From Bryobacterales bacterium (GTDB lineage Bacteria > Acidobacteriota > Terriglobia > Bryobacterales > Bryobacteraceae), in assembly GCA_003167495.1 (NCBI GenBank), contig PMSX01000344.1, forward strand, positions 1 through 64,000: a stretch of DNA of 64,000 nt, in the 5' to 3' direction. The notes below the pieces were generated by a model. That model made no database searches and was not told the DNA's origin. It worked only from the letters and a program-made list of their open reading frames with translations. Of the stretch, positions 7,810-37,705 are shown piece by piece. How positions within the stretch are numbered: position 1 is the first letter of the stretch; each line of letters starts with the position of its first letter. The position numbers and the translations under genes were made by a program.

Positions 7810-7819
7810 GAGGGATAAG

Positions 7820-7850
7820 ATGACAAACCAAGAAAACCGTTGGCTTCCTC
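7820..7850 (+). pseudogene. 5' stub of a lost transfer-operon gene
   Basis: An ATG at 7820 with a purine-rich site (GAGGGATAAG) just ahead begins a frame reading MTNQENRWLPQ. About 30 bases later the sequence becomes the antisense of hepT. Spacing and ribosome site are like those of the other operon genes, so this looks like the start of a gene whose remainder was replaced by the toxin-antitoxin module. The lost gene's identity cannot be told from 11 residues, and the stub could also be chance. Confidence 0.3.
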
Positions 7851-8485: not shown

Positions 8486-8508
8486 GTTCGTTCCTCGCCA
8501 TCAGTATG

Positions 8509-8525
8509 CCATCCCGCACGGATGG
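8509..8525 (-). promoter_or_regulatory. inverted repeat upstream of mntA-hepT
   Basis: CCATCC (8509-8514) and GGATGG (8520-8525) form a perfect 6-base inverted repeat with a 5-base spacer, 24 bases before the mntA start. The position suits an autoregulatory site of the toxin-antitoxin operon. This is inferred from symmetry and place only. Confidence 0.35.
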
Positions 8526-8572
8526 TTGTCCCATTTCCCTCTACTCAAACACACGAATTAGGAGAACTAAAC

Positions 8573-8872: not shown

Positions 8873-8907
8873 TTTGGTCATCGCCAGAAATAAAGGAGTA
8901 ACGCATC

Positions 8908-12477: not shown

Positions 12478-12483
12478 ACCGTC

Positions 12484-15237: not shown

Positions 15238-15250
15238 GGAAAAAACCACC

Positions 15251-18907: not shown

Positions 18908-19750
18908 ATGGCATATATCGAACCGATCATTCGACGAAAATTTTCACAGCAAGATCGCGCCGCTGTCCAAGAGCATATTTGCCTGGCCGTCGAGGCCGAT
19001 CCAGAGCGCTTCCTCACCGCCTATCGTCTGGATTCGCGCTCGTTTCAAGGCCGCTATGTCAATTCGGACCTGATGAAGGAAATGTTCCCTGAATATAATG
19101 CTTCGAAAGAACATCGCAATCGCTATAATTTGCCAGTCCACAACTCTGCTGCGGTATTGGCCGCCGCGCAGTTCCGAGCAGCCATTGCCGATGATTCCGT
19201 TCCCGAGCGGACCAATGCCCTGTTCTTAACCGGAGTGCCAGGCGCGGGCAAAACGACTGCCGTACTCGCCAACCGAGATCAATTTCCACAGGATGCGCGG
19301 ATCTTATACGAAGGACAACTTTCGGACCCTGTCAAGGCCATTCCCAAGTTCGAAGCGGCTCTCGGTAGCGGGTTGGATGTTGAAATTGTTGCAATCCACG
19401 TATTATCCGAGCAAGCCCTAGCCAACACGATTCTTCGCTTCGAGCGTGAGGGCCGCGGTGCGGCGATTGAAGCTCTTGGTCGGATTCAGGGCCATTTGCC
19501 GGATGGTTTGAAGCAGATTTACTCCCGTTTTGGCGACAAAATCGGCCTTAGCGTCATCGATAAGCGCGATATAATGAAGGTGTTTAGATATCGGGGCTGG
19601 GAGGCGATCTCGCTGCTGGAATCGGAAGGAGATTATGAGCAAATCAAACGAAAGCTTACCGAAAACCTCGAAGCCCAATACGCCGCCCACCTCATTACCC
19701 CCGGAGCCTACCAACAAGCCTTCGGCCAAGCCTCTGCCACCGTCGATTGA
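18908..19750 (+). CDS. zeta-toxin-like P-loop kinase
   Basis: A 280-residue protein with Walker A GVPGAGKTT at residues 109-117 and, ahead of it, a segment FQGRYVNSDLMKEMFPEY that resembles the substrate-side motif of zeta toxins. Zeta-type kinases phosphorylate UDP-N-acetylglucosamine or other small molecules and poison the cell unless held by an antitoxin. No epsilon-like antitoxin is obvious next to it. It ends the operon that begins with ssb. A decayed second copy lies 250 bases downstream (19985-20115), so the locus has been duplicated or replaced. Confidence 0.7.
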   Translation: MAYIEPIIRRKFSQQDRAAVQEHICLAVEADPERFLTAYRLDSRSFQGRYVNSDLMKEMFPEYNASKEHRNRYNLPVHNSAAVLAAAQFRAAIADDSVPERTNALFLTGVPGAGKTTAVLANRDQFPQDARILYEGQLSDPVKAIPKFEAALGSGLDVEIVAIHVLSEQALANTILRFEREGRGAAIEALGRIQGHLPDGLKQIYSRFGDKIGLSVIDKRDIMKVFRYRGWEAISLLESEGDYEQIKRKLTENLEAQYAAHLITPGAYQQAFGQASATVD

Positions 19751-20211: not shown

Positions 20212-23200
20212 TCAGAGTCGCTTGAATAGCGGTATCCAATCGTTCGAACTGGCCCATATGATGGGGAGAGTGTTGTTCGGGCAACTGCGTTCAAAGACTA
20301 CTAGAGCTTCGGAATTGCCATATCCCAAAGGATGCTTTGGCTCCAGCCGAGAACCCAAATCGCTAACTAAGTGTTTGGCTCTCCCACACTCATCGGCATC
20401 AGAAAAGATTCCATTTAGGCCGGAGAAAGCCCTGTCAGCGTCCGTGAACGGCTCGGCTATGCGTACGTTTATTCGCACGCCCCTTCGGCTCAACTCCTCT
20501 TCAAGGTGACTCGCAGACGCTTGAAACCCTGCGATTACACAAAGGAAGATAGGCGTCTTTCTCGTTTTCTGGAGTTCGGAGAACTCATCGCGCATTGCCA
20601 GAAGGCAATCAGTCGCAGATTGTCCAGTGCCCAAAAAATCGTCAACAAAGACTACCGCTTTTACCTTGCCTGTCAGGGCACTCTTGATTGCACGCGCGGG
20701 TTCCAGGATATTTTCGTAATATACTTTGTTCTCCTCGCCGTATAACTTCGAGTACTGAAAGCCGCTCTTTCCGGGGCTATCCAGATAGCTAATTACGGTG
20801 TCGTGGAGACGCGGCACTTTGCCTTCATACCGAAAAGCAACGTCGCGACCGATCATTTGGTGGAGCGTAACAAGCCGTTGGCGGATTTCGTTCTCATCGA
20901 AGAATTTCAGCTTGGAGAGTAATTTAAAAATTAGCCGCCGATCAACGTTGGTGCCACACTGTGCCAACCAATGTCGAACATCCTCGATTGTGATACGGCG
21001 CCCTTTATATACTTTCCAAAGATCTACTACCGTGCGAATCTCATCATCACGAACATATGCGGCTTCTTCTCGCTTACGGTCCAACGTGGCGATTCGATCG
21101 CCGAGCCTAGGAAGAAGCTCTTTAGGCCCACTCTCTCTGAGCCATTCCGCGAAAAAGCCAACCTTCAGCCGGATGATACTCTCATCGCGCAGAAACACAT
21201 TGCGTTGAATGAAGTCCTCAAGTTCCTGCTCTATGACTTCCCCGGACAGGTCAAAACTAGTCCCGGCGAGCTTTAGTTGCTGAGCTGTTACAAGCCTGGA
21301 TCGCCGAGCAACTTCCGCATAACAGAGAAGGGTTTTTTGGCGCGTTTCAGATATGCGTTTGCGCTCGTCACCCCTTTCAACGATTCCGTCCTCCCAAAAA
21401 TGAAGGAAACTGTTCACACCAACACTTCGAAGTTCGTTTTGAACAGTGGCGTTGATTTCCGACTCCGTCACGTGACCATCTCGGCGTTTGACCATTGCTT
21501 TAAAAAGACTTTTACACAACAATTTTGTGAAGTAGGGATTACCCGCAGTATAGTCATAGAGCGCGTTGATCGCCCTGTCGCTAATTTCTAGAATCTGATC
21601 TACAGGCCTACGGACGAGATCAACAAAATCACCCCAGTGCTGCTGACGATCAAAATAGTCAACCCTTACTGTCTTGAACTTGTTGAGTTCATGACCTTGG
21701 AGGCCAAGGATCGCCTGCATCTTTTCGCTGCCCACTAGTACGAATCCAACGTTCGGTTTCGCGCTAACACTCCGAAGCGAAAGAAAGAATGCATCTGCCA
21801 CGTTGTTGTGGGTATACAGGTCTGTTGGCAACTCGTCAAATTCATCGAGAATGAAAATCAGCCGTCGATCGGGAGTCACGCGCAGTACCCGGTTCACGAA
21901 GTCGCCAAAGGGCGCAAAGGCACCGTCAAAAGAGGGTACCGCGATGGATTGCCAACGTTCATCACATGATTTGATTTCTTCACAGAGCTTTGTGGCTAAT
22001 GCGTCGATAGTTCGCACGGGATCGGGGCGGACGTATTCGCCTCCTTCCAGATAGATAACTGAGTACTCTCCGGGGAAGTCGGCCCGTAAACGATTCGCCA
22101 GAGTCCTTACTAACGACGTCTTTCCTACTCGCTTCTGTCCGAAGATCACTGCCGATCCCACACTCGTTCCCCTGACCATTGAAACCAGATCATTGAGAAA
22201 ATCAGCACGCCCGATGAGGTCTGCCTCTGTCGTCACAGGCTCAAGGTCGTAGGGCTCAGAGGTCGACAAGGACGTCCAATTGATGTCGCTACGCTGGGAA
22301 AGGAAAAGGAGGGTGTATCGCCTGAACTCCCGTTTCTGGTCGGAACGCTGCCATTCAACATCCAATTCCAGTGCGACATCCGTTGCAATGCCCGCGGTCT
22401 TCACCGGAAGACGAACGCGCGTTTGCCCGGCAAGGTCGCCAATTGAAATCGTCGACCTTCCTAGCGATACGTCGGTGATCGCAGCGGCAGTCAAAGATAC
22501 GTCGAATGCGTGTCCAGGCCCGTCATTTCCGATATCAATCTCCAAATCGACGTCCTTGTTTTGCAAGTAGAAAGGATATTTCTTGTCCGACGGCGCTACC
22601 GTGATACTGGGTGCTTGATGAATTGGTGATTTTGCAAAATGAGTTTCCAAATCAGCGAGCACAAGTTTGAGCGGCTCGGCGATGTAGCGTTTGGAATACC
22701 AAAAGTGAACACTCTCTGCCTCAGCAATCCCGTTTTCAATACTTTGGCGAGCCGCTATAAGGCTGGCTGGCACGTCTTTCGGGCGTGCGTTCAAATATGC
22801 GGATATGGAATCGCAGACGGAGCTTAGAAGCGTATCTAACTCCATCTTTGGGAAGTAGTGCGGAAGCACTGCGTGACCAAAACCGCTGCGAAATTGTTTC
22901 AAGAGAGCCGTCCTATACGCGGGTACCGTTAGCATCGTTAATGGCTGAGCCAGTACCGCTTCGAGGGCATGCTCGAGGTGCGGCACTACATCCTTAAGTT
23001 TTGCCTCTTTCTCATGGTTTTGCTGCTTGACATCTAGCTTGAGGCGCTTGTACAGATCATGCTCAAAGACGCGGTCAAACAGTTGGTAAGCGTGAAAAGA
23101 AAACGGCTTGATTTGGAAGGCATCAGAGTTGCAACCGAGCAACCGAAGTAGACACACCGCCGAGAATTGATTCTGAGCGAAGCTTAGTGCAGGTGAAAAC

Positions 23201-23403
23201 AGTCCGTCTCGTGCTTCGTTGGGCCAGTCCCGTCGTGGAACGGCATGATACGAGAGTATTGCAACGGCCACTTGATTGAGAATCGAGGGAAGACTCTTCT
23301 GATCGATCTGTCGTCGAGCTTCGGATGCTCGCTCGAGGCCTTGGTCTATCCCTTGGGCGGGGGATACTACTGCCGGTGCTGCGGGGAGCGTGTCGTTGGG
23401 CAT
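20212..23403 (-). CDS. STAND/ORC-like ATPase with C-terminal phosphoribosyltransferase-like domain
   Basis: A 1063-residue protein, probably a defence sensor-effector. Residues 1-260 are helical, and 265-365 are beta-rich and Ig-like. An ORC/STAND-type ATPase covers about 385-660, with Walker A GQKRVGKTS (422-430), Walker B LIFILDEFDEL (515-525) and the sensor GNPYF (621). A winged-helix-like stretch follows. The C-terminus has a PRPP-binding loop VVFVDDFLGTGQSA (917-930) and the tail LGYGNSEALVVFERS..NNTLP, as in PRTase-CE effectors of conflict systems. Such domains may act on nucleotides when the ATPase senses invasion. It stands alone on the minus strand, 520 bases downstream of the helicase operon. 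Confidence 0.75.
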   Translation of the reverse strand: MPNDTLPAAPAVVSPAQGIDQGLERASEARRQIDQKSLPSILNQVAVAILSYHAVPRRDWPNEARDGLFSPALSFAQNQFSAVCLLRLLGCNSDAFQIKPFSFHAYQLFDRVFEHDLYKRLKLDVKQQNHEKEAKLKDVVPHLEHALEAVLAQPLTMLTVPAYRTALLKQFRSGFGHAVLPHYFPKMELDTLLSSVCDSISAYLNARPKDVPASLIAARQSIENGIAEAESVHFWYSKRYIAEPLKLVLADLETHFAKSPIHQAPSITVAPSDKKYPFYLQNKDVDLEIDIGNDGPGHAFDVSLTAAAITDVSLGRSTISIGDLAGQTRVRLPVKTAGIATDVALELDVEWQRSDQKREFRRYTLLFLSQRSDINWTSLSTSEPYDLEPVTTEADLIGRADFLNDLVSMVRGTSVGSAVIFGQKRVGKTSLVRTLANRLRADFPGEYSVIYLEGGEYVRPDPVRTIDALATKLCEEIKSCDERWQSIAVPSFDGAFAPFGDFVNRVLRVTPDRRLIFILDEFDELPTDLYTHNNVADAFFLSLRSVSAKPNVGFVLVGSEKMQAILGLQGHELNKFKTVRVDYFDRQQHWGDFVDLVRRPVDQILEISDRAINALYDYTAGNPYFTKLLCKSLFKAMVKRRDGHVTESEINATVQNELRSVGVNSFLHFWEDGIVERGDERKRISETRQKTLLCYAEVARRSRLVTAQQLKLAGTSFDLSGEVIEQELEDFIQRNVFLRDESIIRLKVGFFAEWLRESGPKELLPRLGDRIATLDRKREEAAYVRDDEIRTVVDLWKVYKGRRITIEDVRHWLAQCGTNVDRRLIFKLLSKLKFFDENEIRQRLVTLHQMIGRDVAFRYEGKVPRLHDTVISYLDSPGKSGFQYSKLYGEENKVYYENILEPARAIKSALTGKVKAVVFVDDFLGTGQSATDCLLAMRDEFSELQKTRKTPIFLCVIAGFQASASHLEEELSRRGVRINVRIAEPFTDADRAFSGLNGIFSDADECGRAKHLVSDLGSRLEPKHPLGYGNSEALVVFERSCPNNTLPIIWASSNDWIPLFKRL

Positions 23404-23924: not shown

Positions 23925-26900
23925 CTACCGTGCCTCACCTTGAGCTCGACGCCCGGGGCTCAAATCAATTTGCAGCTCGGCCACGATGCGCTCGCGCTCG
24001 TGTTCGGGAATTTCCGCCAGCAGATAAGTAATCAGATCCTCCTGACGGCTTTGGCCGAAGACCATTCGATAGATGGCGAGAGCACGACGCAACCCGTATA
24101 GGCGCTCTTCATCACGGCTGAAAGGCAGTCTGGGAACATGCCTCTCGATTTTCGCATCCCCAGAAAAGATCCAATAGGGAACAAGATCATTCTTCCCCAC
24201 GGGACGACTCGCGAGACCGAGCGCAAAGACGTTCTCCCAAATATCCGGGTCAGCCTGAGCAAACGCCTCGCCTGCAAATGCCGCAGCGACATTTTTCCGC
24301 ACCGCATGTCCTTTGTAACGATGTATCCGGCCTTCTCGCTGTTCCAGGTCGACGGGGTTTGAAGGCAGGTTCCAGTGCGTCACGGAATGGCAGTAGTGGT
24401 GGAAATCAAGACCCTCCTGGCCGACAGTCGTGGACACCAGCACGAACGGCCAAAATGGCGAATTGAACGCCGCGCGAACACTCTCCTTGCGGGTCCTCGT
24501 CACCGGCGCGGCGCCGGGGGTGGGTGATACTTCTTCATCGGAACGGTCGTCACCAAACCGCATGGCGAAACGGATACGCATCGGTTCAGATGTGATCTTC
24601 ACGTCGCGGGCGTAGGCTGGCGCCGCAACTTCATCGACTCGAAGTGACGCGGCACGAATAGTCAACGCCGCAATGACTTCGGCAGAAATTTTCTCTGCCA
24701 TTTCCTTAACGGATGCAGCGGCTAGACCGAGCGACTCGCGGAGCAGATGCGCGTATTCGTCGAGAACAGCCTGGAGCCCGCCCGCATGGGCATATTCCAG
24801 CACGCGTTCCCAATAAGGTTCGCCGTGGAATTCCGAGCGAACCGCTTCAATGACCTCGGCATGGTTAAAAAGGGTGAGGAAGGCTCTTCCAGTGCGTGCC
24901 GCCGCATCACGCGGAGCAAGAGAAAGCGCAGGGCCGCTCCGACCTGCACGCGCATAGGCTCGCAAGGCAACTGTTGCGGGAGCAGCGGAAGCAGCCAGAG
25001 CCAGCACCTCGAAGAGATCATCCGGGGTCAAGCCAAGACGTTCCCTGCCGCCGCGAATGTCATCCAAAACTTTCGTCGCCTGTTCCACGTGATTGGACCA
25101 GCCTTCGTCCTCTTCACCCGCTCCAACACCGGCCCACACTTGGGCGAGGTCCGGCCGGTTCCACCACGTCTTCGCAGCATCGGGGAATTCAGCGAAATCA
25201 AGGAGCATGGGCGCGACCCAATACCAGCGCTCATCGGCAGCGCCACCAGACTCGGGGACGATACCCAACTTCTCAACAGCGACGCGTAAGCGCGTCGCAA
25301 ACCGCGACCTCGCTTCGTCGGCGGTCACTTTGGCGTCCCGCGCAAGATCTCGCGGGTCGTAATCGCGGGCGAATGTAAGGCAGGGATAGACCAGCAATAG
25401 CAGCGGCATCCCCGTGAGGCGACCCGAGGACATCCCAAATCTCAACAGGCCGCGCTGCTTTTTCCAATCTTCTTGCGTCAATCGCGCACGCGGATGTGGC
25501 GCGCGCATCATCCGGCGCTCGGCATCGTACGACACAAGAGAGGCGACGGCGCGCGGAACCATATGCCACGCGGAGAAGACGAGTTGCTTGGTGACGTTGG
25601 CGAGTTGTGGGGTAGCAAATGGTCCCGCCGGCGCATAGTAGCTCAGTGATGGCGGAATCCAGAGCAGCCGCCACATTCCACGGTCTAACGTGTTGCCAAC
25701 TAACTCCCTCAGACGCGGGTTTCCCGCCTCCAAAGGGCGGTAGTTCCGGGCGTTCTCCAGATCCAGAAACTCCTCCGGGAACTCCCGCACGAAACGCAGC
25801 ATGTCGCGCTGTTCCGGTGCCTCTTTGAACGCCCGTTTCAGGGCGTAGTTGTCCATGAAGTTGAAAAGGTAGGGCGCGGATTTCCAATATTCGACCACGT
25901 CTCCCTGATCCAAAGCAGCGGCAATCCTTTGCGACCCCAAAAAGGCCCGAATATCCGACGCCTGCAAGGAGGGCTCTCCTGGTGGCTCATCCATGAGCAT
26001 GCCCCCGCGCTCGGTCGAGGAGGCCAACCGTTCAGTGCGCGCCATGACGCGCTGCAACCGCTGCTGAAGAGCGAGTTTGGCCTGGCGCAGGCGCGTCAGG
26101 CCATCCGGCGTCATCACGGCGGGCAATGCCGCGCGATACTCGGCCAGAATTTCCTTGCATCCCGCCGCGTCGCCGTTTTCGAGGAAGCGCAGCAACGCGA
26201 GAAAGTCGCCATAATGGTCGTCATCAGTCTCATGATGGAGGCTCAGCCCGCGATATGGCGTCGCCGAAAGCAGCAGGACCCGCGAACCCTGTTCTGTGTC
26301 CGTATTGAACAAGTCGCGGGCAAGCTCTCCCGCTTCAGAATCCTCATCGAGGAGATGCTTAAACCGCTGAAACTCATCTAAGATAATTAAATCCGGCTCC
26401 AGGGTAGTCAGGCAGACACTCGCGAGCAGCCGCCTCAGTTCACCAATCCACTGGGTCCGTTTCTTCGTTGCGCCAGCCGGGGCGTTTGCATCGCTACGGC
26501 AGAATATCGCACGCAGTTCTTCGAACCGCGTGCGCATATCTGGCTTACCGGCAGCCTTTTCTTCTTTCACGCGTTTCGCCAAGCTGGATACGAACTCTGC
26601 CGCGACCTGCTCATTCACTTGCGCATAATCCAAGGCTTCGATGCTCCGCCTGAATGACGCTGTTTTGGCGTAATCTTGCATGACGTAAAGCGAGGACAGT
26701 GGGCCGTGAATGCCCCACGCTGAATCCAGGAGCCAATACAGCAAAGCCCTCTCATCAATGCGTCCTCCGCCTGCGGTCTGATCGAACGATGTGGCTGGCG
26801 TCAACGCCACGAAGTTGATGCGATTACGCCGAAGATCGTCCATATGCAGGGGGAGCAACGTGAGGCGGGTTGCCTGTGCGGCATCCGCGCACCCAGGGAT

Positions 26901-27167
26901 ACGCAGCCTCTGGATATTCTGACGCGCAATATCCGCGTTGGAGCAAATGTAGATGATGTCGATCCGGGGTTTCGTGCACAGGTGATCGATCGTTCTCGCA
27001 ATGACGCCACGCGCCACGAGTGTCTTGCCTAGTCCGACTTCGTCCGCGACGAGAAACCGTCGTGTCGGGTCCGCTCCGTAGAACCGCTCGAAAACGTAAT
27101 CAACGGTCGCGCGCTGAAAGTCCTTCAGGCCTGCCAGAGCTGATTGGGTGTCCGGCGGCGTGCTCAT
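23925..27167 (-). CDS. SNF2-like superfamily 2 helicase of a defence operon
   Basis: A 1080-residue protein with helicase motifs in order: Q-like LKDFQRATVDYV (14-25), Walker A ADEVGLGKT (41-49), DEFQ box LIILDEFQRF (260-269), motif III LLLSATPYRG (298-307) and, near residue 930, VSTTVGQEGLDFH and QREGRIHRYKG (motifs V and VI). A long insert separates the two RecA lobes. It is the last gene of a four-gene minus-strand operon and overlaps the PLD gene by 4 bases. It resembles the SNF2 helicases of DISARM and Dpd systems, but their other genes are absent. Confidence 0.85.
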   Translation of the reverse strand: MSTPPDTQSALAGLKDFQRATVDYVFERFYGADPTRRFLVADEVGLGKTLVARGVIARTIDHLCTKPRIDIIYICSNADIARQNIQRLRIPGCADAAQATRLTLLPLHMDDLRRNRINFVALTPATSFDQTAGGGRIDERALLYWLLDSAWGIHGPLSSLYVMQDYAKTASFRRSIEALDYAQVNEQVAAEFVSSLAKRVKEEKAAGKPDMRTRFEELRAIFCRSDANAPAGATKKRTQWIGELRRLLASVCLTTLEPDLIILDEFQRFKHLLDEDSEAGELARDLFNTDTEQGSRVLLLSATPYRGLSLHHETDDDHYGDFLALLRFLENGDAAGCKEILAEYRAALPAVMTPDGLTRLRQAKLALQQRLQRVMARTERLASSTERGGMLMDEPPGEPSLQASDIRAFLGSQRIAAALDQGDVVEYWKSAPYLFNFMDNYALKRAFKEAPEQRDMLRFVREFPEEFLDLENARNYRPLEAGNPRLRELVGNTLDRGMWRLLWIPPSLSYYAPAGPFATPQLANVTKQLVFSAWHMVPRAVASLVSYDAERRMMRAPHPRARLTQEDWKKQRGLLRFGMSSGRLTGMPLLLLVYPCLTFARDYDPRDLARDAKVTADEARSRFATRLRVAVEKLGIVPESGGAADERWYWVAPMLLDFAEFPDAAKTWWNRPDLAQVWAGVGAGEEDEGWSNHVEQATKVLDDIRGGRERLGLTPDDLFEVLALAASAAPATVALRAYARAGRSGPALSLAPRDAAARTGRAFLTLFNHAEVIEAVRSEFHGEPYWERVLEYAHAGGLQAVLDEYAHLLRESLGLAAASVKEMAEKISAEVIAALTIRAASLRVDEVAAPAYARDVKITSEPMRIRFAMRFGDDRSDEEVSPTPGAAPVTRTRKESVRAAFNSPFWPFVLVSTTVGQEGLDFHHYCHSVTHWNLPSNPVDLEQREGRIHRYKGHAVRKNVAAAFAGEAFAQADPDIWENVFALGLASRPVGKNDLVPYWIFSGDAKIERHVPRLPFSRDEERLYGLRRALAIYRMVFGQSRQEDLITYLLAEIPEHERERIVAELQIDLSPGRRAQGEAR

Positions 27168-29005
27168 TTCGCAATGACCTGTTGGGCGGCATCCCAGATG
27201 GGTTCCCAGATTTTCTGAAAATCGCTGCTGAGAAGTTCTGAGCTACTCGGCTCTTTGCGCAAGACTTCCAGCAAGGAAGCCACTCTCGCCAGTTGTGCGG
27301 GACCGCGATGCAGGGCGCGGAGCATCGTTTCAAGCAAATACGGGTGAGGCAACACGCGGCCTTCGCCGTCCTGCCGGGAGGTCAGCAACTTGCGCAAATC
27401 ACCGGAGGAAGCGGCCGCTTCATCTCCTGATGCGAGCAGAAACAGGATGTACCGCAGCAACTGGTCGCGGTTTTCGATGAGCGACCGGACAATGCGATCC
27501 TGCCGGTCCTCTGGCGCACCTTGCATCGAAAGGTTCATCACGAACACCGTTTTGCCGACCGTTTCGCCAACCTTGGCGGAGACGGAAAAAGCGATCAACG
27601 ATGTCAGTCCCACGAAAGAAAGCCTGGGGAAAACGACCATGTTGTTATTGAGCAGTTGCCCGCGGTCCGCTTGCTGCGTGATAGGCCAGGCACGAACCTC
27701 AACCGTCGAATCTGGCCAAAGGGGAGCATGCGCACATTCAAGGCTCAGGTCGAACAAATCTTTTTCCGCCGAGCTGACGACCAGTCGTGGACCGGCTGCC
27801 ACAAGAGCGCGTTTCGCGGCCTCCAGCAAGTCATCGAGCTTGCGTGCCACGGCATCCACCGGGACGGATGGAGCAGTGACGTCATAGTCATGCAACAAGT
27901 CGGCAAAGTTTGTCTCGCCCTTTACCTGTCGAAGAAACTGGTCTACGCCGAACTGACTTCTTTTGCCGACGAGTTCGACCATGAACTCGACATTGTGCTC
28001 AAACGCATGCGCAGTCGCGTTGAACGAGCCGCTGAACACGCTCGCGTCCCACCCACGGTCGATCACGAACAACTTTGCATCGAGGCCGTTAAGCACTTCC
28101 CGGCTTCCCGTCGTCGCGGCATCGTCATCCGATTCATCCACGACTTCCGGCGCGAGGAATCGGACGCTTTTGCAAAGCCGCAATGTTTCTTGCGGCAATT
28201 CCTGCAAACATTCCTGACGTGAAACCAGATGCGTCTCTCCACCAGTCTCCAGGAAGTCACTGACAACAATGTTCGAGACGAACGGCGAGACAATCAGTTT
28301 TTTGTCGCGCCGAGCGCCGAAAGGGGCTGTCGTCCGGCCGTCCAGTCCCGCAACCCAGAAGCGGCACTGGCTTTCATCAAAGCCCTCCGGCCACGTGAAC
28401 CGCACGCGCCGCAATTCATCCGCGATCTTCGCGACGCCTTGCCGCCGCTGAGGCGCCAGCTTGCGCAAAGCGAGATTCGGCAGCGCGGCGATAAGATCGG
28501 CAAGCGGGTGATTTGCCGCAATGGCATTTGTCCGATTTGCAAGCTCTCCGTCCAGTGCGACGACCGTATCCCAGCAACGGTCAAACGTCAGATTGCGGCT
28601 CAGGCACAATACGCGGTAACGAACCGTGCCGTCCTCAGCAACAAACCGCAGCGCCCAGACCTTCGGGTGAAAGACCCCCTCCGGGTCCGGGACCCTCACT
28701 TCATAAATGCACGGTTCCAGAAACGTGACCAGCGGTGGATACTTTGCAGGCAAGCGCATCTGACCGCTTTGGCAGAAGACCGTAAAACGATCTCCATAAC
28801 GCCTCAAAGCTTCGAGCAGTGCCAGCGGATCGGCTACCAGTTCGCCATCCGCGTGCTCCCAGTCAAAAAATGCGAATGACAGGGGGAGCATCAGGGCACT
28901 GATAAGGTCGAGCGAAAACGTCGTGCCAACGGCAAAGTCGAGCTGACATCCAGCCGGAGGCCGGAGCAACTCAAGGAGATGTGCGCGTTCATCGGGCCTA
29001 AGCAT
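27164..29005 (-). CDS. phospholipase D-like nuclease of the defence operon
   Basis: A 613-residue protein starting at the ATG at 29005 (MLRPDERAHL), which overlaps the preceding stop by 8 bases. A longer version from 29125 would overlap by 128 bases. Two PLD-type sites are visible: HPK at 113-115 with LSRNLTFDRCWD at 135-146, and a second with DAK (309-311) in place of HxK, followed by GSFNATAHAFEHNVE (326-340). The second site thus lacks its histidine. PLD proteins in defence operons degrade DNA alongside SF2 helicases. It overlaps the helicase start by 4 bases, showing tight coupling. Confidence 0.82.
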   Translation of the reverse strand: MLRPDERAHLLELLRPPAGCQLDFAVGTTFSLDLISALMLPLSFAFFDWEHADGELVADPLALLEALRRYGDRFTVFCQSGQMRLPAKYPPLVTFLEPCIYEVRVPDPEGVFHPKVWALRFVAEDGTVRYRVLCLSRNLTFDRCWDTVVALDGELANRTNAIAANHPLADLIAALPNLALRKLAPQRRQGVAKIADELRRVRFTWPEGFDESQCRFWVAGLDGRTTAPFGARRDKKLIVSPFVSNIVVSDFLETGGETHLVSRQECLQELPQETLRLCKSVRFLAPEVVDESDDDAATTGSREVLNGLDAKLFVIDRGWDASVFSGSFNATAHAFEHNVEFMVELVGKRSQFGVDQFLRQVKGETNFADLLHDYDVTAPSVPVDAVARKLDDLLEAAKRALVAAGPRLVVSSAEKDLFDLSLECAHAPLWPDSTVEVRAWPITQQADRGQLLNNNMVVFPRLSFVGLTSLIAFSVSAKVGETVGKTVFVMNLSMQGAPEDRQDRIVRSLIENRDQLLRYILFLLASGDEAAASSGDLRKLLTSRQDGEGRVLPHPYLLETMLRALHRGPAQLARVASLLEVLRKEPSSSELLSSDFQKIWEPIWDAAQQVIAK

Positions 29006-30221
29006 CAGGCATCTCCAGGCCCTCAAAGATGTCCCCAAGCAAACGCTGACTGATGAGCCATCGAAATTCCAGTTGTGCGGAGCCGGAATCACCGTTCCAT
29101 AACTCCTGTGCGCGGGCGTTGCCAATTCGAGCCAGATTTTTCTTCAACCGGCGCTCCCTTTCGCCAATCAAAGAGCGTGCAGACACACTATCGCGCAATC
29201 CTGCCGCATCACCCGCCAATGCCTTGTCCCACCACGTATTGATGAAGTCGTAGGTAGGGTTGCTGATGCGGGGATTCACAGCGCGGACCGATTCCCAGAA
29301 TCGTGTGCGCTGCCACGCAATCAGGAGAGGGGACCGCTTCGCGATCAATTGCGCCCATTCGGAGAACCGCTGACGATACTTTCCGACGCCTTCATCCCAA
29401 CGCGCCTCTTCAGCCAGCACCAGATTATAAAGCAGTGGAGCGCCGTGCATAACCTCGGAGAAACACCGCGCATGATGCACTAATTCCGCCAATTTTGGGG
29501 GCAGTTCGGCAGAGTAAGGATGTTCCCACACAAACGGAACATCGTCATGGCGCCGGCCCTGTGCGACCAATTCCGCTAGCAATGACCCCGCGCTCGTGGG
29601 GCTTAAACGGATGCGTTCTGCAAGGTATTCGGCTTCGTGGCGCGTCAAGCTCAACGAACAGCTTCCGGGATAGTCCGGCGGCGGCGGAATCAGTCCACCA
29701 TGCCAGTTCGGTGCGACAAGATCATCATGCTCAATGTCGCGCTCCAACGCGCGTCCGCCCTGCCGCGTTATTTGCAAGTAGTACTGATCGAGGCCGCGAT
29801 GATACTGTGCCTGTGCCCCTTGGAAGCCGCGGATTCCCCAAACGCTCAGGCCCTGCCAATAGACGCTGCTTGGTAGCCGTTTCAGAGCGGTCTTCGCAAC
29901 CTTGCCGATATTTCCGTCGTTATCATCTGAGTGCTCGATGACCTCGACCAGGTCGGTTTCGGCGCGCCGCGCTCGCGCAGCTATCTGTCCTGAGCTGATG
30001 CGCTGCTTTTCCATCCGCTGATACGTCCAGGGGACGAGAAGGAAATACCGCGCGCGCGTCATGATCGTGCTTGTGCCCGGAAACAGCACGTCGGCAAATG
30101 CATCGCGCACCGAGCCAACGCCCAGCTCGTCGCGAGTGTCGTGCTCTCTAAAGAGATCGACGACATCGAGCATTTTCCGCCGTTCGCGTTCCGAGTAGTC
30201 AAGCCATACGAACATCGACAT
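28998..30221 (-). CDS. DUF6361-like protein of the defence operon
   Basis: A protein of about 407 residues beginning MSMFVWLDYSERERRKML. I use the ATG at 30221, which has GGAG about 12 bases upstream (an in-frame TTG lies at 30239). The N-terminus (LFREHDTRDELGVGSVRDAFADVLFPGTSTIMTRARYF) recalls the family labelled DUF6361, known to me only as a domain of unknown function seen near helicases and nucleases. No catalytic motif is evident, and a DNA-binding or sensor role is possible. It lies between the GTPase and the PLD gene. Confidence 0.65.
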   Translation of the reverse strand: MSMFVWLDYSERERRKMLDVVDLFREHDTRDELGVGSVRDAFADVLFPGTSTIMTRARYFLLVPWTYQRMEKQRISSGQIAARARRAETDLVEVIEHSDDNDGNIGKVAKTALKRLPSSVYWQGLSVWGIRGFQGAQAQYHRGLDQYYLQITRQGGRALERDIEHDDLVAPNWHGGLIPPPPDYPGSCSLSLTRHEAEYLAERIRLSPTSAGSLLAELVAQGRRHDDVPFVWEHPYSAELPPKLAELVHHARCFSEVMHGAPLLYNLVLAEEARWDEGVGKYRQRFSEWAQLIAKRSPLLIAWQRTRFWESVRAVNPRISNPTYDFINTWWDKALAGDAAGLRDSVSARSLIGERERRLKKNLARIGNARAQELWNGDSGSAQLEFRWLISQRLLGDIFEGLEMPDA

Positions 30222-30262
30222 CAGAGGCGATTTCTCCAAGTGTGATCGGCCAATTTACCGTT

Positions 30263-32419
30263 CTAGGCCTTTACGTCAGTTTCCAACAAAGACGAGAGGC
30301 GATTCAGCGCAGATGCCCACTCCCGCGTGACAACTTCCCAGAGTTCCTGTTCCAGGTCCCGCCGAGATTCGGCGTTGAACCATTGCTGGTTTCGGTCTGC
30401 GACGCGATCCCGGTATCCCGGTCCTTGGCCCCATTCGCTTTCGCAGTTAGACCACAGGGAGGGGTCCAGCTTCAACGCGTCCGTGAAAACAGTCAGGCCC
30501 ATCAATTGAGCCTTGCGCAGCAGGTCCTCAAAGGCGGATTCAAGCACACGACGTGATTGCTGTATTAAATCGCTTGCCTCTGTGAATTGTGGGTCTGCCG
30601 CCATGATATCCGCTGTAACCAGAAATGTCTGTAAAAGCGGTTGAAGCGCGAGAACAGCAAGCCGCCGCGCGCCAAAGCCGAGATGATGGCCGTAGCTCAA
30701 ATTACGCCACTCACCCTCACGCCGAATCGTGGCGCGCACCGTCGCGGCATACGAGGAGTGGATTTGCGACATGAGACTGTCATGGATGTGTCCCGACAGA
30801 GCAGGTACGTTGCGGTTCTTGGAAATCCAGGTAGCGATCATGCCGGCAGCCGACCGCAGGACTTCCTGCACCTGTTCCTTCTCGTGGTTCTCCACCAAAC
30901 TTCTCGCACTCGTGATCGTTTCGCTGATACGCGTCCTAAAGCCCTCGCGGATCTTCCTCAGGGACTCCATGATAAGTCCGCGCAATCTTGCCGGATCGTC
31001 CCCGAAGGCGTTAAAGAATCCAATGGTGAGCTTTTGCAGGCCAAGCGGCTCAAGGGACATGGACGCAAATTCTTCCTTCAGGCTGTATCCTTCTTCGACC
31101 GTCTCGGCTCGTGCGCCTGACTCGTCCTTCACGGCAAGCGCCTCGTTGGCCCGCGGCAAGATGAGCAACCCCGCATTCAGTTCGATGCGGCGCAGACCGG
31201 CTTCCTTGGCGCGTTCCAGCAGTTGATGCGCAGCGACAGAGGGTGCGTCATTAAAACTTGAGCAGAGCAAAGCAAGAGTATGAGGCTCATCGAGATGCCG
31301 CTCGAGGTCGGCGCGCGCGGCTGTTCTATCGATGCCGCGCGTGTCAACGAGGTTCACCGTGAGGTCGCTGGTGCCAATGAGAGGCTGCGGCACGAAGATT
31401 TCTATGCGGTTCGGCAGTGTGAACTCAGGGTGTCGGCCATTGTTGACCTGTTCGAAAGTATCCTTTAGCCAAGCAAGCGGCGGCTTTCCAGCGCTCGGAG
31501 CGTACCAGATATCGCGGCGGTCACGCCGGTGCAGTTCCATGCGCGCCAGCACGTCAACGACGAATTCGCGCATGGAAATAGCCTTCGCCGCCAGATCTTT
31601 CGCCTCATCGCGGCGGATCGTCTTGCCATGGGGGCCTTTTTCCCGGCGCACCTTGAGGCCGGCGAGGTTCCGTATCGCCCGTTCCATCTCCTGCGAAATC
31701 CCGCGCGCCTCATCTTCCCCGGTCGCGTCCTCGTCGAATTCAGTCGCGCCTTTCATAATGTGTTCGGCGAAGTCGGTGACATACGCGCGGATTTCTTCGT
31801 CGTTACAAGCCTCGATCATGAGGCCATGGGACTGCCCCGTGCGCAAATGAACGTCACAGATGGTCACGCCCCCGCCGCCGGCTTCCAGGACGGGCGAAGA
31901 GGCTCCGCCGTCCTGTCCGGGAACTTCCAGCCCGGTCGCCTTGCAGATGGCGGTCGATTTCCCGATGCCCTTGCTGCCGATAAATGCGACTTCGTGATCA
32001 CGCTTCAGAATGAGGCTTGCACTTTGCTTGATGTCGTCGAGGTACTCCGTGAGACGGCGCTCGAACGCATGGCGGACGTCAGGCTGATTCCTAAGCTTGA
32101 CCAGTTCGCGGCACACCAGCTCAGCGTCCCAAAGAAGGTCCTGATCCGCGTGATCGAGCGGCGGACGGGGGATTTCCGCCCAGTCGCGGCCAAGTGCCGT
32201 CGAAAGCTGGAGGGCCTCTGGTGTACCGATGGCTTCGGCCACCTTCGTCAATTCGTCGGAAGATAGCTGCCGTTCGCCGGATTCAATACGCGACAAAACC
32301 GCCGGGCTCCAGGTGATCTTTCGCGCGAGATCGGCCTGCGTTATCCGGGCGGCCTCACGAATCTGGGCGAGCCGATATCCCACTTCCTTTTGAATTGTTT
32401 CTGCCGTTGTCGTCATCAT
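30263..32419 (-). CDS. XRE-domain protein fused to a dynamin-like GTPase
   Basis: A 718-residue first gene of the four-gene operon. Residues 13-68 are a helix-turn-helix of the XRE type (ITQADLARKITWSPAVLSRIESGE). A large GTPase follows, with G1 GSKGIGKST (148-156), a possible G2 threonine in GGGGVT (181-186) and G3 DTRG (359-362), then a long helical region to the end, the plan of dynamin-like proteins. Dynamin-like GTPases remodel membranes and some protect bacteria from phage. Fusion to an operator-binding domain is unusual and suggests that the same protein controls the operon. Repeats over its promoter support this. AAGGCGG precedes the ATG. Confidence 0.75.
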   Translation of the reverse strand: MMTTTAETIQKEVGYRLAQIREAARITQADLARKITWSPAVLSRIESGERQLSSDELTKVAEAIGTPEALQLSTALGRDWAEIPRPPLDHADQDLLWDAELVCRELVKLRNQPDVRHAFERRLTEYLDDIKQSASLILKRDHEVAFIGSKGIGKSTAICKATGLEVPGQDGGASSPVLEAGGGGVTICDVHLRTGQSHGLMIEACNDEEIRAYVTDFAEHIMKGATEFDEDATGEDEARGISQEMERAIRNLAGLKVRREKGPHGKTIRRDEAKDLAAKAISMREFVVDVLARMELHRRDRRDIWYAPSAGKPPLAWLKDTFEQVNNGRHPEFTLPNRIEIFVPQPLIGTSDLTVNLVDTRGIDRTAARADLERHLDEPHTLALLCSSFNDAPSVAAHQLLERAKEAGLRRIELNAGLLILPRANEALAVKDESGARAETVEEGYSLKEEFASMSLEPLGLQKLTIGFFNAFGDDPARLRGLIMESLRKIREGFRTRISETITSARSLVENHEKEQVQEVLRSAAGMIATWISKNRNVPALSGHIHDSLMSQIHSSYAATVRATIRREGEWRNLSYGHHLGFGARRLAVLALQPLLQTFLVTADIMAADPQFTEASDLIQQSRRVLESAFEDLLRKAQLMGLTVFTDALKLDPSLWSNCESEWGQGPGYRDRVADRNQQWFNAESRRDLEQELWEVVTREWASALNRLSSLLETDVKA

Positions 32420-32548: not shown

Positions 32549-32926
32549 TCACGGCTTCATCCAAAATCTGCCCGTCTTCTTCCGGCCAGGCATTTTCCAT
32601 CGTCGGCGTTTTCGCGTCGGACGATGCTCCAGAAGTCCGAGGTGTTGGTTGGCTTCGATGAGGTGAGCGAGTTCGTGCACGATCACGTAGTCAATGACAA
32701 ACATCGGCGCCTTGAAGAGATGCCAGTTGAAATTCACGCTATCGCCGACGGTGCAGGAACCCCAGCTGTTAATTTCAACATTATCCGCGAATCTTTCAGA
32801 GCCAATAATGTGGTAGGCGAGTCGCACTGAATTTGGAACAAACTGTGGCCAGTCGCATTCAATGTGGAAATTGACACAAAGCCGCACGTCCCCGATCATC
32901 AGTACAGCTGGCGCATCCCAGAACAA
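32549..32926 (-). pseudogene. truncated YgjP-like metallopeptidase
   Basis: The frame keeps the conserved core of a YgjP/DUF45 (M48-like) peptidase: WGSCTVGDSVNFNWHLFKAP and the zinc motif HELAHL. The first half of the family is missing. After HELAHLIEAN the frame shifts: a different frame (NTSDFWSIVRREN) carries the expected continuation, near 32640. The intact paralogue is at 40752-41468. It is probably a relic of an earlier restriction or defence cassette. Confidence 0.7.
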
Positions 32927-34040: not shown

Positions 34041-36440
34041 ATGGCTCTCAAGAAATCGGAACTTTACAGCTCCCTCTGGTCCATGTGCGACGGACTGCGT
34101 GGGGGTATGGACGCGAGCCAGTACAAGGACTACGTCCTCGTGCTGCTCTTCATCAAGTACATCAGCGACAAGTACGCGAACGTGCATTACGCGCCGATCT
34201 CCGTGCCGAAGGGCGCGAGCTTTGCGGACATGATCGCGCTCAAGGGCAAGCCGGACATCGGCGACCAGATCAACAAAACCATCATCGCGCCGCTGGCCAA
34301 TGCCAATAAACTGTCTGACTTCCCGGATTTCAATGACGCCACCAAGCTCGGTAGCGGCAAGGAAATGGTGGACCGGCTCACCGATCTCATCGCCGTCTTC
34401 GAGAACCCGGCGCTCGATTTCTCGAAGAACCGTGCCGACGGCGATGACATCCTGGGCGATGCGTATGAGTACCTCATGCGCCACTTCGCCACCGAAAGCG
34501 GCAAGAGCAAGGGTCAGTTCTATACGCCTGCCGAGGTGAGCCGCATCATCGCGCAGATCCTGGAGATCCGCAAAGCGAAGACCAGTCCCGATACGACCGT
34601 CTACGATCCCACCTGCGGCTCAGGCTCATTGCTGCTCAAAATCGCCGACGAAGCCACCAGCAAAGTCACGCTCTACGGGCAGGAAAAGGACGCGGCCACC
34701 AGCGGCCTGGCCCGGATGAACATGATCCTGCACAACAATCCGACCGCGCTCGTCGTGCAGGGCAATACGCTCACCGATCCCAAGTTCAAGGATGGCAGCA
34801 CGCTTAAGACTTTTGATTACGTGGTCGCAAATCCGCCGTTCTCCGACAAACGCTGGAGCACCGGCCTCGATCCGCTCACCGATCCTTACGAACGCTTCAA
34901 GCCCTTCGGCACGCCTCCGGGTAAGCAGGGCGATTATGCTTACCTCCTACACATTGTTCGCTCACTCAAAAGCACCGGCAGGGGCGCATGTATATTGCCC
35001 CACGGCGTTCTCTTCCGTGGAAACGCTGAAGGGGACATCCGCCGCAATCTTGTGCGCAAAGGCTACATCAAGGGCATCATCGGCCTGCCTGCGAACCTGT
35101 TTTACGGCACCAGCATCCCAGCCTGTATCGTGATCGTGGACAAATACGGAGCCCACACGCGCAAGGGCATCTTCATGATTGACGCGAGCAGCGGCTTCAT
35201 GAAGGACGGCCCCAAGAACCGGCTCCGCGCCCAGGATATCCATAAAATCGTGGATGTATTCAACCGGCACCTGGACGTTCCGAAATACTCGCGCACGGTC
35301 TCTTTTGATGAAATCGAAAAGAATGATTTCAACCTGAATCTGCCGCGCTATGTCGAAAGCAAGCAGGCGGAAGACTTGCAAGACATAGAAGGCCACCTGA
35401 AGGGCGGCATCCCGGAGCGCGATATTGAGGCTCTCGGCTTCTACTGGAACGTATGTCCCGAGCTTCGCCATTCGCTGTTTAAGGCCAATCGGCCCGGCTA
35501 CGTGGATCTCGCGGTGGACAAGTCGGTCATTAAGACCGCCATATACGAACATGCTGAATTTGCGGCCTTTATCACCGGCATGAATGAGCATTTTGCCGCG
35601 TGGCGACACCAGACGGCGAAGGCGCTGAAAGCGCTGGAACCCGGTTGCCATCCCAAAGCCGTCATCTCAAAAATCGCAGAAGAACTGCTGGCCCACTATC
35701 TTGGGAAACCGCTGATGGACCCTTACGCCGTCTATCAGCACCTGCTGGACTATTGGGGAGAGACCATGCAGGACGATTGCTATTTGATTTCGGCAGACGG
35801 CTGGAAGGCCGAAACGGCGCGGATCATTGAAAAGGATAAGAAGGGCAAGGAGAAAGACAAGGGCTGGACCTGCGACCTCATCCCCAAGCACCTCATCGTT
35901 GCGCGGTATTTTGCGAAACACCAGGTGGAGATTGAACAGATTGCCGCAGAACTTGAGACGGTAACCGCCAAACTGGCCGAGCTGGAAGAAGAGCATGGGG
36001 GCGACGAGGGTGCCTTCTCGGAGCTGGAAAAAGTCAACAAGGCCGAAGTGGCAAAACGCCTGAAAGAAATCAAGGGCGACAAGAACGTTGCCGACGAAGC
36101 CGCTGTACTGAATGAATGGCTCAAAATGAGCGAGTGCGAGTCCGACCTCAAGAAGCGCTTGAGGGACGCGGAAGCCGCGCTCGACGCCAAAGCCTACGCC
36201 CAATATCCAAAGCTAACTGAGGTGGAAATCAAGACGTTGGTAGTGGACGACAAATGGATCGCCGCGCTCGATGCTGCTATCCACGGGGAGATGGACCGTA
36301 TCAGCCAGGCGCTGACCCAGCGGGTGAAGGAGCTTGCTGAACGGTACGAAACACCTTTTCCGCAAATGGCAGATCGCGTTGCAGAGTTGGAAGCCAAGGT
36401 GAACCAGCACTTGGTTGAAATGGGGTTCGTATGGAAGTGA
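34041..36440 (+). CDS. hsdM: type I restriction-modification methyltransferase, HsdM
   Basis: A 799-residue adenine-N6 methyltransferase. The N-terminal recognition/helical domain (MALKKSELYSSLWSMCDGLRGGMD) is followed by the SAM-binding motif YDPTCGSGSLLLK (about residue 189) and the catalytic NPPF (VVANPPFSDKRW, about 262). Usual HsdM proteins are near 500-550 residues. The extra 250 at the end are charged and coiled-coil-like (LAELEEEHGG, KKRLRDAEAALDAK). It methylates host DNA at the HsdS-defined site. It overlaps hsdS by 10 bases. Confidence 0.95.
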   Translation: MALKKSELYSSLWSMCDGLRGGMDASQYKDYVLVLLFIKYISDKYANVHYAPISVPKGASFADMIALKGKPDIGDQINKTIIAPLANANKLSDFPDFNDATKLGSGKEMVDRLTDLIAVFENPALDFSKNRADGDDILGDAYEYLMRHFATESGKSKGQFYTPAEVSRIIAQILEIRKAKTSPDTTVYDPTCGSGSLLLKIADEATSKVTLYGQEKDAATSGLARMNMILHNNPTALVVQGNTLTDPKFKDGSTLKTFDYVVANPPFSDKRWSTGLDPLTDPYERFKPFGTPPGKQGDYAYLLHIVRSLKSTGRGACILPHGVLFRGNAEGDIRRNLVRKGYIKGIIGLPANLFYGTSIPACIVIVDKYGAHTRKGIFMIDASSGFMKDGPKNRLRAQDIHKIVDVFNRHLDVPKYSRTVSFDEIEKNDFNLNLPRYVESKQAEDLQDIEGHLKGGIPERDIEALGFYWNVCPELRHSLFKANRPGYVDLAVDKSVIKTAIYEHAEFAAFITGMNEHFAAWRHQTAKALKALEPGCHPKAVISKIAEELLAHYLGKPLMDPYAVYQHLLDYWGETMQDDCYLISADGWKAETARIIEKDKKGKEKDKGWTCDLIPKHLIVARYFAKHQVEIEQIAAELETVTAKLAELEEEHGGDEGAFSELEKVNKAEVAKRLKEIKGDKNVADEAAVLNEWLKMSECESDLKKRLRDAEAALDAKAYAQYPKLTEVEIKTLVVDDKWIAALDAAIHGEMDRISQALTQRVKELAERYETPFPQMADRVAELEAKVNQHLVEMGFVWK

Positions 36441-37705
36441 GGCCCGGCTACAAGCAGACCGACCTTGGGGTAATTCCGGAGGATTGGTCAGTCTCCGAAT
36501 TAGAATCCGTTGCAAGGATTATTGACCCGCAGCCGGACCACAGAACTCCGCCGGAGGCGACAGGAGGTGAACCATACATCGGCATCAGTGACTTTCTTGA
36601 TAACCAAACCGTTGATTGGGTTGCATGCCGGAAAATTGTTTCCCGAGCTGTCGACAAGCAGAGAGCACGCTTCCAACTCCGTCGGGGCGACATTATTTTC
36701 GGAAAGATCGGAACGATCGGATCACCGCGATTTATACCATCCGTTCCATTTCGATATGCGCTCAGTGCTAACGTTTTGCTAATTCAGCCAACAATTCAGC
36801 CGCAGTTCGTAATGTCTTGGCTGCAATCAAAGACGTGCCAGAAAGCCATCACTGCCGAATTACACAGCACTTCACAGGCGGCTTTTGGAATAAACAAAAT
36901 GCGGCTGGTCAAGGTTCCTCTGCCGCCGTCTGAAGTCGAACAAAGAGCCATTGCCGATGCGCTAAGCGATGCGGATGCGCTCATCGAATTCCTGGAGCAA
37001 CTTATTGCCAAGAAGCGCCAGATCAAGCAGGCTGCGATGCAGGAGTTGCTTACCGGTAAGAGACGACTTCCTTCCTTTATAGCGTCTACCGACTACAAGC
37101 AGACTGAAGTTGGCGAGATTCCAGAAGATTGGCGGGTAGCTGCTATTGGCGACCTTTCCACCTGTTACTCAGGCGGTACTCCAAATACCGCCAATCCCAG
37201 TTTCTACGGCGGAGAGATTCCCTGGATCACATCCGGCGACCTAAACCTTATTAGGATAAAGCACGTCGAGGGGAGAATTACTACTGAGGGTCTCGCGCAT
37301 TCCGCCGCCAAGATTGTCAACGAGGGCACCGTTCTCATTGCGTTATACGGAGCCACGGCAGGAGTCACTGCCATAACTGAGATCCGCGCGGCCATTAACC
37401 AAGCTGTGCTGGCTATTGTTTCCAATCAAGTCAATCCAGAATATATATTTCAACTTCTTCGATACAGAAAGGATCATTATGTCGCCACGTACACACAGGG
37501 TGGCCAACCGAATCTGAGTGGTGATATCGTTAAAGCCTTTCTGATAGCTATTCCTCCAACCAAAGAGGAACAACAAGCCATCGCGGCTGTTCTGACCGAC
37601 ATGGACGCGGCGATTGATGCTGCAGTCGCAAGGCTTGCCAAAGCGCGCACTATCAAGCAGGGCATGATGCAGGAACTCCTCACCGGAAGGATTCGCCTTG
37701 TATGA
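36431..37705 (+). CDS. hsdS: type I restriction specificity subunit, HsdS
   Basis: A 424-residue subunit with two target-recognition halves: the first begins YKQTDLGVIPEDW (residue 5) and ends with the helix KKRQIKQAAMQELLTGKRRL; the second repeats as YKQTEVGEIPEDW and TIKQGMMQELLTGRIRL. This internal near-duplication is the normal HsdS plan, with each half reading one part of a split DNA site. It overlaps hsdM by 10 bases and hsdR by 4, so the three are one operon. Target sequence cannot be predicted by eye. Confidence 0.95.
   Translation: MEVRPGYKQTDLGVIPEDWSVSELESVARIIDPQPDHRTPPEATGGEPYIGISDFLDNQTVDWVACRKIVSRAVDKQRARFQLRRGDIIFGKIGTIGSPRFIPSVPFRYALSANVLLIQPTIQPQFVMSWLQSKTCQKAITAELHSTSQAAFGINKMRLVKVPLPPSEVEQRAIADALSDADALIEFLEQLIAKKRQIKQAAMQELLTGKRRLPSFIASTDYKQTEVGEIPEDWRVAAIGDLSTCYSGGTPNTANPSFYGGEIPWITSGDLNLIRIKHVEGRITTEGLAHSAAKIVNEGTVLIALYGATAGVTAITEIRAAINQAVLAIVSNQVNPEYIFQLLRYRKDHYVATYTQGGQPNLSGDIVKAFLIAIPPTKEEQQAIAAVLTDMDAAIDAAVARLAKARTIKQGMMQELLTGRIRLV

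Follow-up and report, generated by a model that had tools for sequence, protein, structure and literature searches.

Do four tightly packed genes in the genome of a Bryobacterales bacterium (assembly GCA_003167495.1, contig PMSX01000344.1) constitute a new antiphage system, or do they bring together parts that are found separately elsewhere? The genes occupy positions 23925-32419, minus strand, of the window, by which we mean the whole stretch of 64,000 bp that was analysed (64000 of the 64983 bp of its contig, from a draft genome of 9.39 Mb that is 93.9% complete with 7.6% contamination). A first-pass annotation, made from the sequence alone, had read them as a four-gene antiphage operon corresponding to no named system. 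The evidence presented below favors a different answer. Very probably, the locus carries two modules in tandem on a mobile element: a complete copy of the known three-gene Azaca system and, ahead of it, an independent mobile gene whose product joins an XRE-type helix-turn-helix domain to a dynamin-like protein (XRE-DLP).

The last three genes of the operon are recognized by PADLOC profiles that align nearly end to end. Specifically, zacA (28998-30239, minus strand; 413 amino acids (aa) from a TTG start) matches the ZacA profile with an E value of 1.2e-125 over positions 2-395 of 396, and also matches the Pfam family DUF6361 over its full length (5.3e-56, 190.7 bits vs a cut-off of 25). The PLD-like product of zacB (27164-29005, minus strand) matches positions 1-583 of 586 (1.2e-174), and in Pfam its PLD domain reaches 19.8 bits, below the cut-off of 27. 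The SNF2-like superfamily 2 helicase encoded by zacC (23925-27167, minus strand; 1080 aa) matches with E=0 and 1113 bits over positions 5-1016 of 1019, and its helicase motifs (Walker A GKT, DEFQ, SATP and QxxGRxxR) align in all 12 ZacC proteins compared. Because all three genes give matches of nearly full length, a named system is present. By profile membership, zacA-zacB-zacC is a complete, already named Azaca system, and the window holds an additional member of it, with the gene order of its relatives. The earlier claim that no named system applies thus fails for three of the four genes, and only XRE-DLP falls outside it; the same membership speaks in favor of the operon being antiphage. 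Azaca was reportedly described by Millman et al. in 2022, and ZacA, ZacB and ZacC are its components. In published work, Azaca is grouped with systems having a PLD-like domain (PMC10952713), ZacC is named as the Azaca helicase (PMC12278908), and Azaca is reported to be rare in a PADLOC survey (PMC13321033). Among the matches listed, no paper treats ZacA, ZacB and ZacC as a system, judged by title, and no paper on DUF6361 was found in the open-licence literature.

The packing of the genes was correctly described at the outset. All four are intact, co-directional open reading frames (ORFs) on the minus strand. Alignment with relatives favors an ATG at 30221 as the start of zacA and an ATG at 29005 as the start of zacB (listed as an ORF at 27164-29125, 653 aa), and with these starts zacA and zacB overlap by 8 bp (28998-29005) while zacB and zacC overlap by 4 bp (27164-27167). 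The XRE-DLP gene (30263-32419, minus strand; 718 aa) lies outside Azaca and is separated from zacA by 41 bp when the ATG at 30221 is used, or by 23 bp if translation begins at the TTG.

The window copy of Azaca differs from its relatives in being preceded by the XRE-DLP gene, and also in the second HxK motif of ZacB. The first HxK motif is kept in 21 of 21 aligned proteins (that of the window and 20 relatives). At the second, the window protein carries Asp309 (codon GAT, 28079-28081, minus strand), where the 20 other aligned ZacB proteins all have His. The two histidines of a PLD enzyme work as a pair. Since Asp309 replaces the conserved histidine of the second motif, this ZacB may be unable to cut, leaving the local Azaca copy impaired, or the base may be wrong in the draft genome.

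DISARM and Dpd also combine an SNF2-like helicase with a PLD part, and the window helicase matches the PADLOC profiles for DrmD (8.6e-15) and DpdE (8.3e-15). Both systems were rejected, in agreement with the first-pass annotation: the helicase scores 66 bits against curated cut-offs of 610 (DrmD) and 500 (DpdE), far below its match to ZacC, and no other DISARM or Dpd gene is present among the window proteins scanned.

Does Azaca travel with the XRE-DLP gene? In six plasmid loci (from a Halomarina archaeon, Cronobacter, two Bradyrhizobium, Phaeobacter and Haliscomenobacter) the order DUF6361-PLD-helicase is kept in every case, the gene upstream of zacA is different in each, and none has XRE-DLP; the order zacA-zacB-zacC without the GTPase gene is thus seen in one archaeon and, among bacteria, in a bacteroidote, a gammaproteobacterium and alphaproteobacteria. 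For the phylum of the window, E<=0.001 proved too loose a threshold for ZacB, with matches in 83 of 396 phylum genomes and 5 of 14 control genomes, and one of >500 bits was used instead. This level is reached in 5 of the 396 sampled genomes, and the 78 remaining genomes with a match score 67 bits or less. At E<=1e-30, ZacB is found in 10 of 399 class genomes and in 0 of 14 control genomes. These searches supplied 14 ZacB-bearing loci outside the genome of the window, of which one (L129) is cut at a contig end and was dropped. The remaining 13 show zacA and at least 1.8 kb of upstream DNA, although zacA of L081 and L082 is either incomplete or split between two frames, zacB of L126 is likewise frame-split, and L127 has a cut-off zacC. 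A hidden Markov model of the GTPase family finds no XRE-DLP in these 13 Acidobacteriota loci, nor in the six from plasmids, making 0 of 19 with visible upstream DNA. Similarly, no accession is common to the 19 plasmid records bearing an XRE-DLP GTPase and the 56 that match ZacC, and in the class sample of 399 genomes both GTPase and ZacB occur only in the window's own genome, which was always included. Pattern searches of viral contigs yielded no ZacA or ZacB relative. Three of the 13 loci (L128, L130 and L131) are divergent relatives, with zacC at 438-559 bits, and look like a divergent ZacABC group. Directly upstream of the set in one of them (L130:3601-7422) is an ORF of 1274 aa whose N-terminus appears SIR2-like by eye.

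The remaining gene encodes a protein of a separate and apparently undescribed kind. Its XRE-type domain (residues 13-70; 32210-32383, minus strand) exceeds the cut-offs of two Pfam families, PF13560 (HTH_31; 45.4 bits vs 27) and PF01381 (HTH_3; 45.0 bits vs 23), and the conserved XRE residues are invariant in 20 aligned family members. The GTPase domain, placed at about residues 141-468 (31016-31999, minus strand) by the strands and helices of the structural model and by motif columns, carries G1 (GSKGIGKST, 148-156), G2 (T186) and G3 (DTRG, 359-362), with LPRxxEA (421-427) at the G4 position. The G1 P-loop (GK[ST]T), the G2 threonine and the G3 motif (DTxG) occur in all 20 aligned members. 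From about residue 476 to residue 717 (30269-30994, minus strand), the AlphaFold model predicts a stalk-like bundle of long helices (476-510, 512-534, 576-608, 610-651 and 684-717), with residues 556-574 below 50 in predicted local distance difference test (pLDDT). A conserved stretch at residues 560-590, near the tip of this helical part, is polar and aromatic, and no hydrophobic segment or transmembrane helix is seen in the 20 members (highest 19-residue Kyte-Doolittle mean, 1.74).

The assignment to the dynamin superfamily comes from the predicted fold. A model built from five sequences (mean pLDDT 82.7; predicted template modelling score 0.68) superseded a first one built from three (pLDDT 62.7), and both give dynamins as top matches. 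When the Protein Data Bank (PDB) is searched by fold, ranks 1-36 are all chains of the dynamin superfamily (E values of 2.8e-8 to 7.4e-4), with SynDLP (2.8e-8), BDLP, a bacterial DLP pair, IniA, mitofusins, MxA/MxB, Fzo1, dynamin and Dlp1 among the top matches, and rank 37 is a G-alpha protein. At the sequence level, Pfam detects no dynamin or other GTPase family in XRE-DLP, and a profile search of PDB sequences gives only P-loop-level matches (best E 0.041). We therefore describe XRE-DLP as dynamin-like by modelled fold, and not as 'a dynamin'; its GTP specificity is unproven. With the bacterial dynamin-like proteins that resemble it (SynDLP, BDLP, the DLP pair 5oxf/5owv, IniA, LeoA and Bacillus subtilis DynA) it shares a GTPase domain followed by long helices, and the best PDB fold matches fall among them. 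It differs from these proteins in its N-terminal DNA-binding domain, its G4 sequence and its want of a hydrophobic segment, and it is too distant from them for a PDB sequence search. The list of parts given in the first-pass annotation thus stands: the XRE domain lies above Pfam cut-offs, DUF6361 is matched in full, the PLD protein is clear as ZacB in PADLOC, the helicase motifs align, and the GTPase is dynamin-like in its model, albeit with a non-canonical G4.

That annotation also regarded the joining of XRE and GTPase domains as unusual. By alignment, this fusion is instead the usual form of its family, because all 20 aligned members have the XRE part. The exceptions are two relatives with the GTPase only, a cyanobacterial one (L040) and L110. 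In the latter (L110:1681-3466), the GTPase part is divided between two frames; its IMG/VR contig also has integrase-like and repressor-like ORFs by eye. No description of an XRE-dynamin fusion was found in the open-licence literature, as judged by titles, which is not proof of novelty.

The XRE-DLP family spans Acidobacteriota, Proteobacteria and IMG/VR contigs. With the full-length protein as query, matches came from 69 of 396 phylum genomes, but 68 were weak and almost all were due to the XRE domain, and the search was therefore repeated with an alignment of the GTPase part only. This matched 3 of the 396 genomes, strongly only in that of the window. Among 399 class genomes, GTPase matches above 100 bits occur in seven (six full-length and one fragment), and four further matches are weak. 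A scan of genome contigs with a single protein query added 1 locus, and pattern searches of viral contigs gave 4 XRE-DLP or GTPase-only loci. Phages gave no match, nor did E. coli genomes in a DNA search with the Citrobacter gene. In total, we distinguish 25 family loci, comprising the window, L002, 15 plasmid loci, four class loci (L103-L106) and four IMG/VR contigs; left out are L091 (the same protein, counted with L035), the plasmid hits H3, H11 and H13, L102 (the L002 contig) and the fragment L107. Because plasmid and viral collections are by design made up of mobile DNA, this sample is biased towards it.

Within the fetched flanks, only the window has an intact Azaca, and 24 of the 25 family loci are without one. 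A defence gene neighbors XRE-DLP in 8 of the 25 loci including the window, a raw count that has no random-gene control. In L002 this neighbor is a broken zacA (PADLOC ZacA 1.6e-27, profile positions 1-74). L033 and L035 have a GmrSD-type DUF262 gene, L036 has Septu PtuA/PtuB (3.7e-165 and 7.1e-111) 238 bp downstream of the XRE-DLP gene, and L108 has HsdM. The neighbor in L086 is Hachiman HamA, divergent and 244 bp away, beyond which HamB is matched over the second half of its profile only, and in L088 a Gabija-like pair lies upstream (GajA 3.1e-49 over part, GajB 7e-13). Weaker signs include HSDR_N in L040, below the Pfam cut-off, and methyltransferases in L034, L085 and L109; L038 has a DUF3800 neighbor with a DpdB-like gene 1.8 kb further on. 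Three Rhizobiaceae plasmids (L039, L089 and L090) carry a divergent HipA_C-domain gene of 610-652 aa beside XRE-DLP. No defence gene was recognized in L032, L037, L074, L087 and L103-L106, where the checks, made from annotation, ORF lists and a small number of Pfam scans, covered part of the neighbors. The defence link of the family is a lead and not a measured excess.

The locus in L002 permits a comparison of the histories of the two modules. Its GTPase is the nearest relative of that in the window (72% identical), and DNA identity remains about 70% through the XRE-DLP gene until 34 bases before the end of its stop codon. Past this point there is just one weak match of 75 bases, inside zacA. 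The broken zacA product is 38% identical to ZacA of the window over 71 aa, whereas ZacA of the archaeon Halomarina is 65% identical to it over 72 aa. Because a close GTPase stands beside a distant zacA in L002, the two modules seem to have different histories. Judging from these sequences, the XRE-DLP gene may have been placed before Azaca twice, or one Azaca may have been swapped behind it. The L002 locus looks decayed, with its XRE-DLP gene shifting frame after the XRE part.

We read the modules as independent because Azaca occurs without XRE-DLP (19 of 19 loci) and XRE-DLP occurs without intact Azaca (24 of 25). Thus, the four genes are not neighbors in other genomes, as the first-pass annotation would have required of a system, and L002 alone keeps the XRE-DLP gene before a zacA, a broken one. 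On this account XRE-DLP is a mobile gene of defence islands that has come to lie before Azaca; it probably regulates itself and possibly controls the operon. Several observations weigh against such a division. Lying only 23-41 bp apart on the same strand, XRE-DLP and zacA may well share a transcript, and the genes may work jointly here; a promoter-like site precedes XRE-DLP but not zacA, although such sites are no commoner than chance. XRE-DLP is found before zacA twice, in the window and in L002, which we judge to be above random, with no null computed. The discordance in history rests on a short zacA fragment of 72 aa. The G4 position carries LPRxxEA, or a sequence near to it, in the 20 aligned members, and does not agree with the canonical motif N/TKxD. 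Template modelling scores of the fold matches are low (0.16-0.30 over query length), and either the domain arrangement of XRE-DLP differs from those of solved dynamins or it is poorly predicted. Asp309 in ZacB may mean that the local Azaca does not cut. Finally, the functions given to all four proteins in this organism are those suggested by their families and fold.

If the two modules are independent, then what does XRE-DLP do? It may be an antiphage protein that works by itself, delaying lysis or sealing membranes in the manner of DynA, with an XRE domain for its own expression and a chance position before Azaca, and we hold this to be possible while stopping well short of favoring it. B. 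subtilis DynA clusters after infection and delays lysis (PMC8844932), which provides a precedent for phage resistance by a dynamin-like protein. The conservation of G1-G3 in every aligned member fits such activity, as does the frequent occurrence of XRE-DLP without a recognized partner on plasmids and in defence-type regions, albeit in collections biased to mobile DNA. However, the family has no hydrophobic segment or transmembrane helix and its conserved tip is polar and aromatic, so that membrane binding is unproven. Somewhat less credible, and in our view doubtful, is that XRE-DLP is a repressor and sensor leading varied defence operons, which are switched on when the GTPase part detects infection. 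The gene does stand first, in the same orientation and at most about 240 bp away, ahead of Azaca (window), the broken zacA (L002), GmrSD-type genes (L033 and L035), Septu (L036) and HsdM (L108), and the N-terminal domain has C.BclI, a restriction-system controller, among its fold matches (rank 49, E 0.021). C proteins and RptR likewise place an operator-binding domain next to restriction or defence genes. C proteins are small (chains among the fold matches have 76-77 aa), and RptR is described as a small regulator, unlike the 718-aa XRE-DLP; we know of no C protein or small defence-island regulator with a GTPase. Against a general regulatory role, 18 of the 25 loci have no recognized defence-type gene immediately following XRE-DLP in the same orientation (DUF3800 in L038 is counted as unrecognized, and L074 and L104 end soon after the XRE-DLP gene). 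Furthermore, the operator search upstream of the gene in the window gave no clear candidate: the two short inverted repeats that it found are both inside the upstream ORF at 32549-32926. A promoter-like site at 32465-32437, minus strand, lies 18 bp upstream of the XRE-DLP gene and none precedes zacA, but such sites occur at chance level in the region (5 vs a mean of 3.4).

A genuine four-gene system, in which Azaca of Acidobacteriota needs the GTPase subunit for activity, would account for the tight packing in the window and for the second occurrence before the broken zacA of L002. This is very improbable, because XRE-DLP is missing from all 13 other Acidobacteriota zacA loci with at least 1.8 kb of upstream DNA, and L002, whose GTPase is 72% identical, does not have the closely related zacA that such identity would lead one to expect. 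As a conserved system, the four-gene set was rejected on the gene neighborhoods elsewhere (0 of 19 other Azaca loci with XRE-DLP). Scarcely more probable is a role for XRE-DLP, in part of its family, as a HipB-like antitoxin or regulator of a HipA-type toxin, of which the role in the window would be a relic. The divergent HipA_C-domain genes prompt this idea, but they occur in just 3 of the 25 loci, all on Rhizobiaceae plasmids, and no HipA is seen near the window gene among the part of the window's genes that was scanned.

Returning to Azaca and an independent XRE-DLP gene in tandem, a working mechanism can be sketched from the families of the proteins. The ZacC helicase would engage or move along invading DNA, PLD-like ZacB would be a partner that cuts or binds nucleic acid, and ZacA would serve as an adaptor or recognition subunit. 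The XRE domain would bind an operator at its own promoter and keep expression of the XRE-DLP gene low; such self-regulation is reasonably likely. The same binding would keep any co-transcribed Azaca genes low here, although we doubt that XRE-DLP truly controls Azaca. By analogy with bacterial DynA, the GTPase part could act at stressed or phage-damaged membranes, and a change in XRE-DLP that depends on nucleotide or membrane could release the operator. Action of the GTPase part at a membrane or phage stage is plausible, yet we lean slightly away from it. The broadest proposal is decidedly unlikely: XRE-DLP proteins would be operator-binding dynamins, mobile and so far undescribed as a family, in which a GTPase that senses membranes or infection is coupled to transcription of whichever defence operon is adjacent. 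If true, this would be the first dynamin-type protein to act as an infection-triggered regulator of bacterial immunity, serving Azaca here and Septu, GmrSD, type I restriction, Hachiman and Gabija-like genes elsewhere. As a defence protein or defence regulator, XRE-DLP would join membrane surveillance to immunity. Labelling the locus a new four-gene system would misdirect work, because three of the genes are Azaca.

The wider window matches the earlier description of a defence-rich cargo region, and gene scans place the four genes in a mobile setting. On the left (418-16216) are conjugation genes for VirB4/TrbE, TrbI, TrbL, a coupling protein, a TrwC relaxase and a T2SSE-type ATPase, and on the right (58874-60088) is an integrase gene ending next to a tRNA-Leu gene. 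Thus, the four genes are probably cargo of an integrative conjugative element sitting in tRNA-Leu. Just upstream of XRE-DLP, the ORF at 32549-32926 (minus strand) encodes a YgjP-like metallopeptidase fragment with a HELAH motif, matching only positions 142-181 of the 207 in the Pfam profile, and looks truncated or frame-shifted. Downstream of zacC, the gene at 20212-23403 (minus strand; 1063 aa) combines an AAA/STAND-like ATPase in its middle part with a PRTase-CE domain at the C-terminus (Pfam 4.6e-46; PADLOC retron PRTase_III-A 2.5e-37), which by these matches makes it a second defence-type gene. A complete type I restriction-modification set is present at 34041-40752 (plus strand; PADLOC HsdM 1256, HsdS 340 and HsdR 1430 bits). 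At 49410-52339 (plus strand), the gene for an EVE-domain protein with an AAA_5 domain precedes one whose product weakly matches a Cas4-like nuclease, and the two may form a McrBC-like restriction pair with an EVE reader. The gene at 46922-47863 (minus strand) weakly matches prokaryotic viperin profiles (8.3e-15, residues 166-281) and probably encodes another radical SAM protein rather than a viperin, and that at 18908-19750 (plus strand) encodes a Zeta-toxin domain protein (Pfam 6.6e-8).

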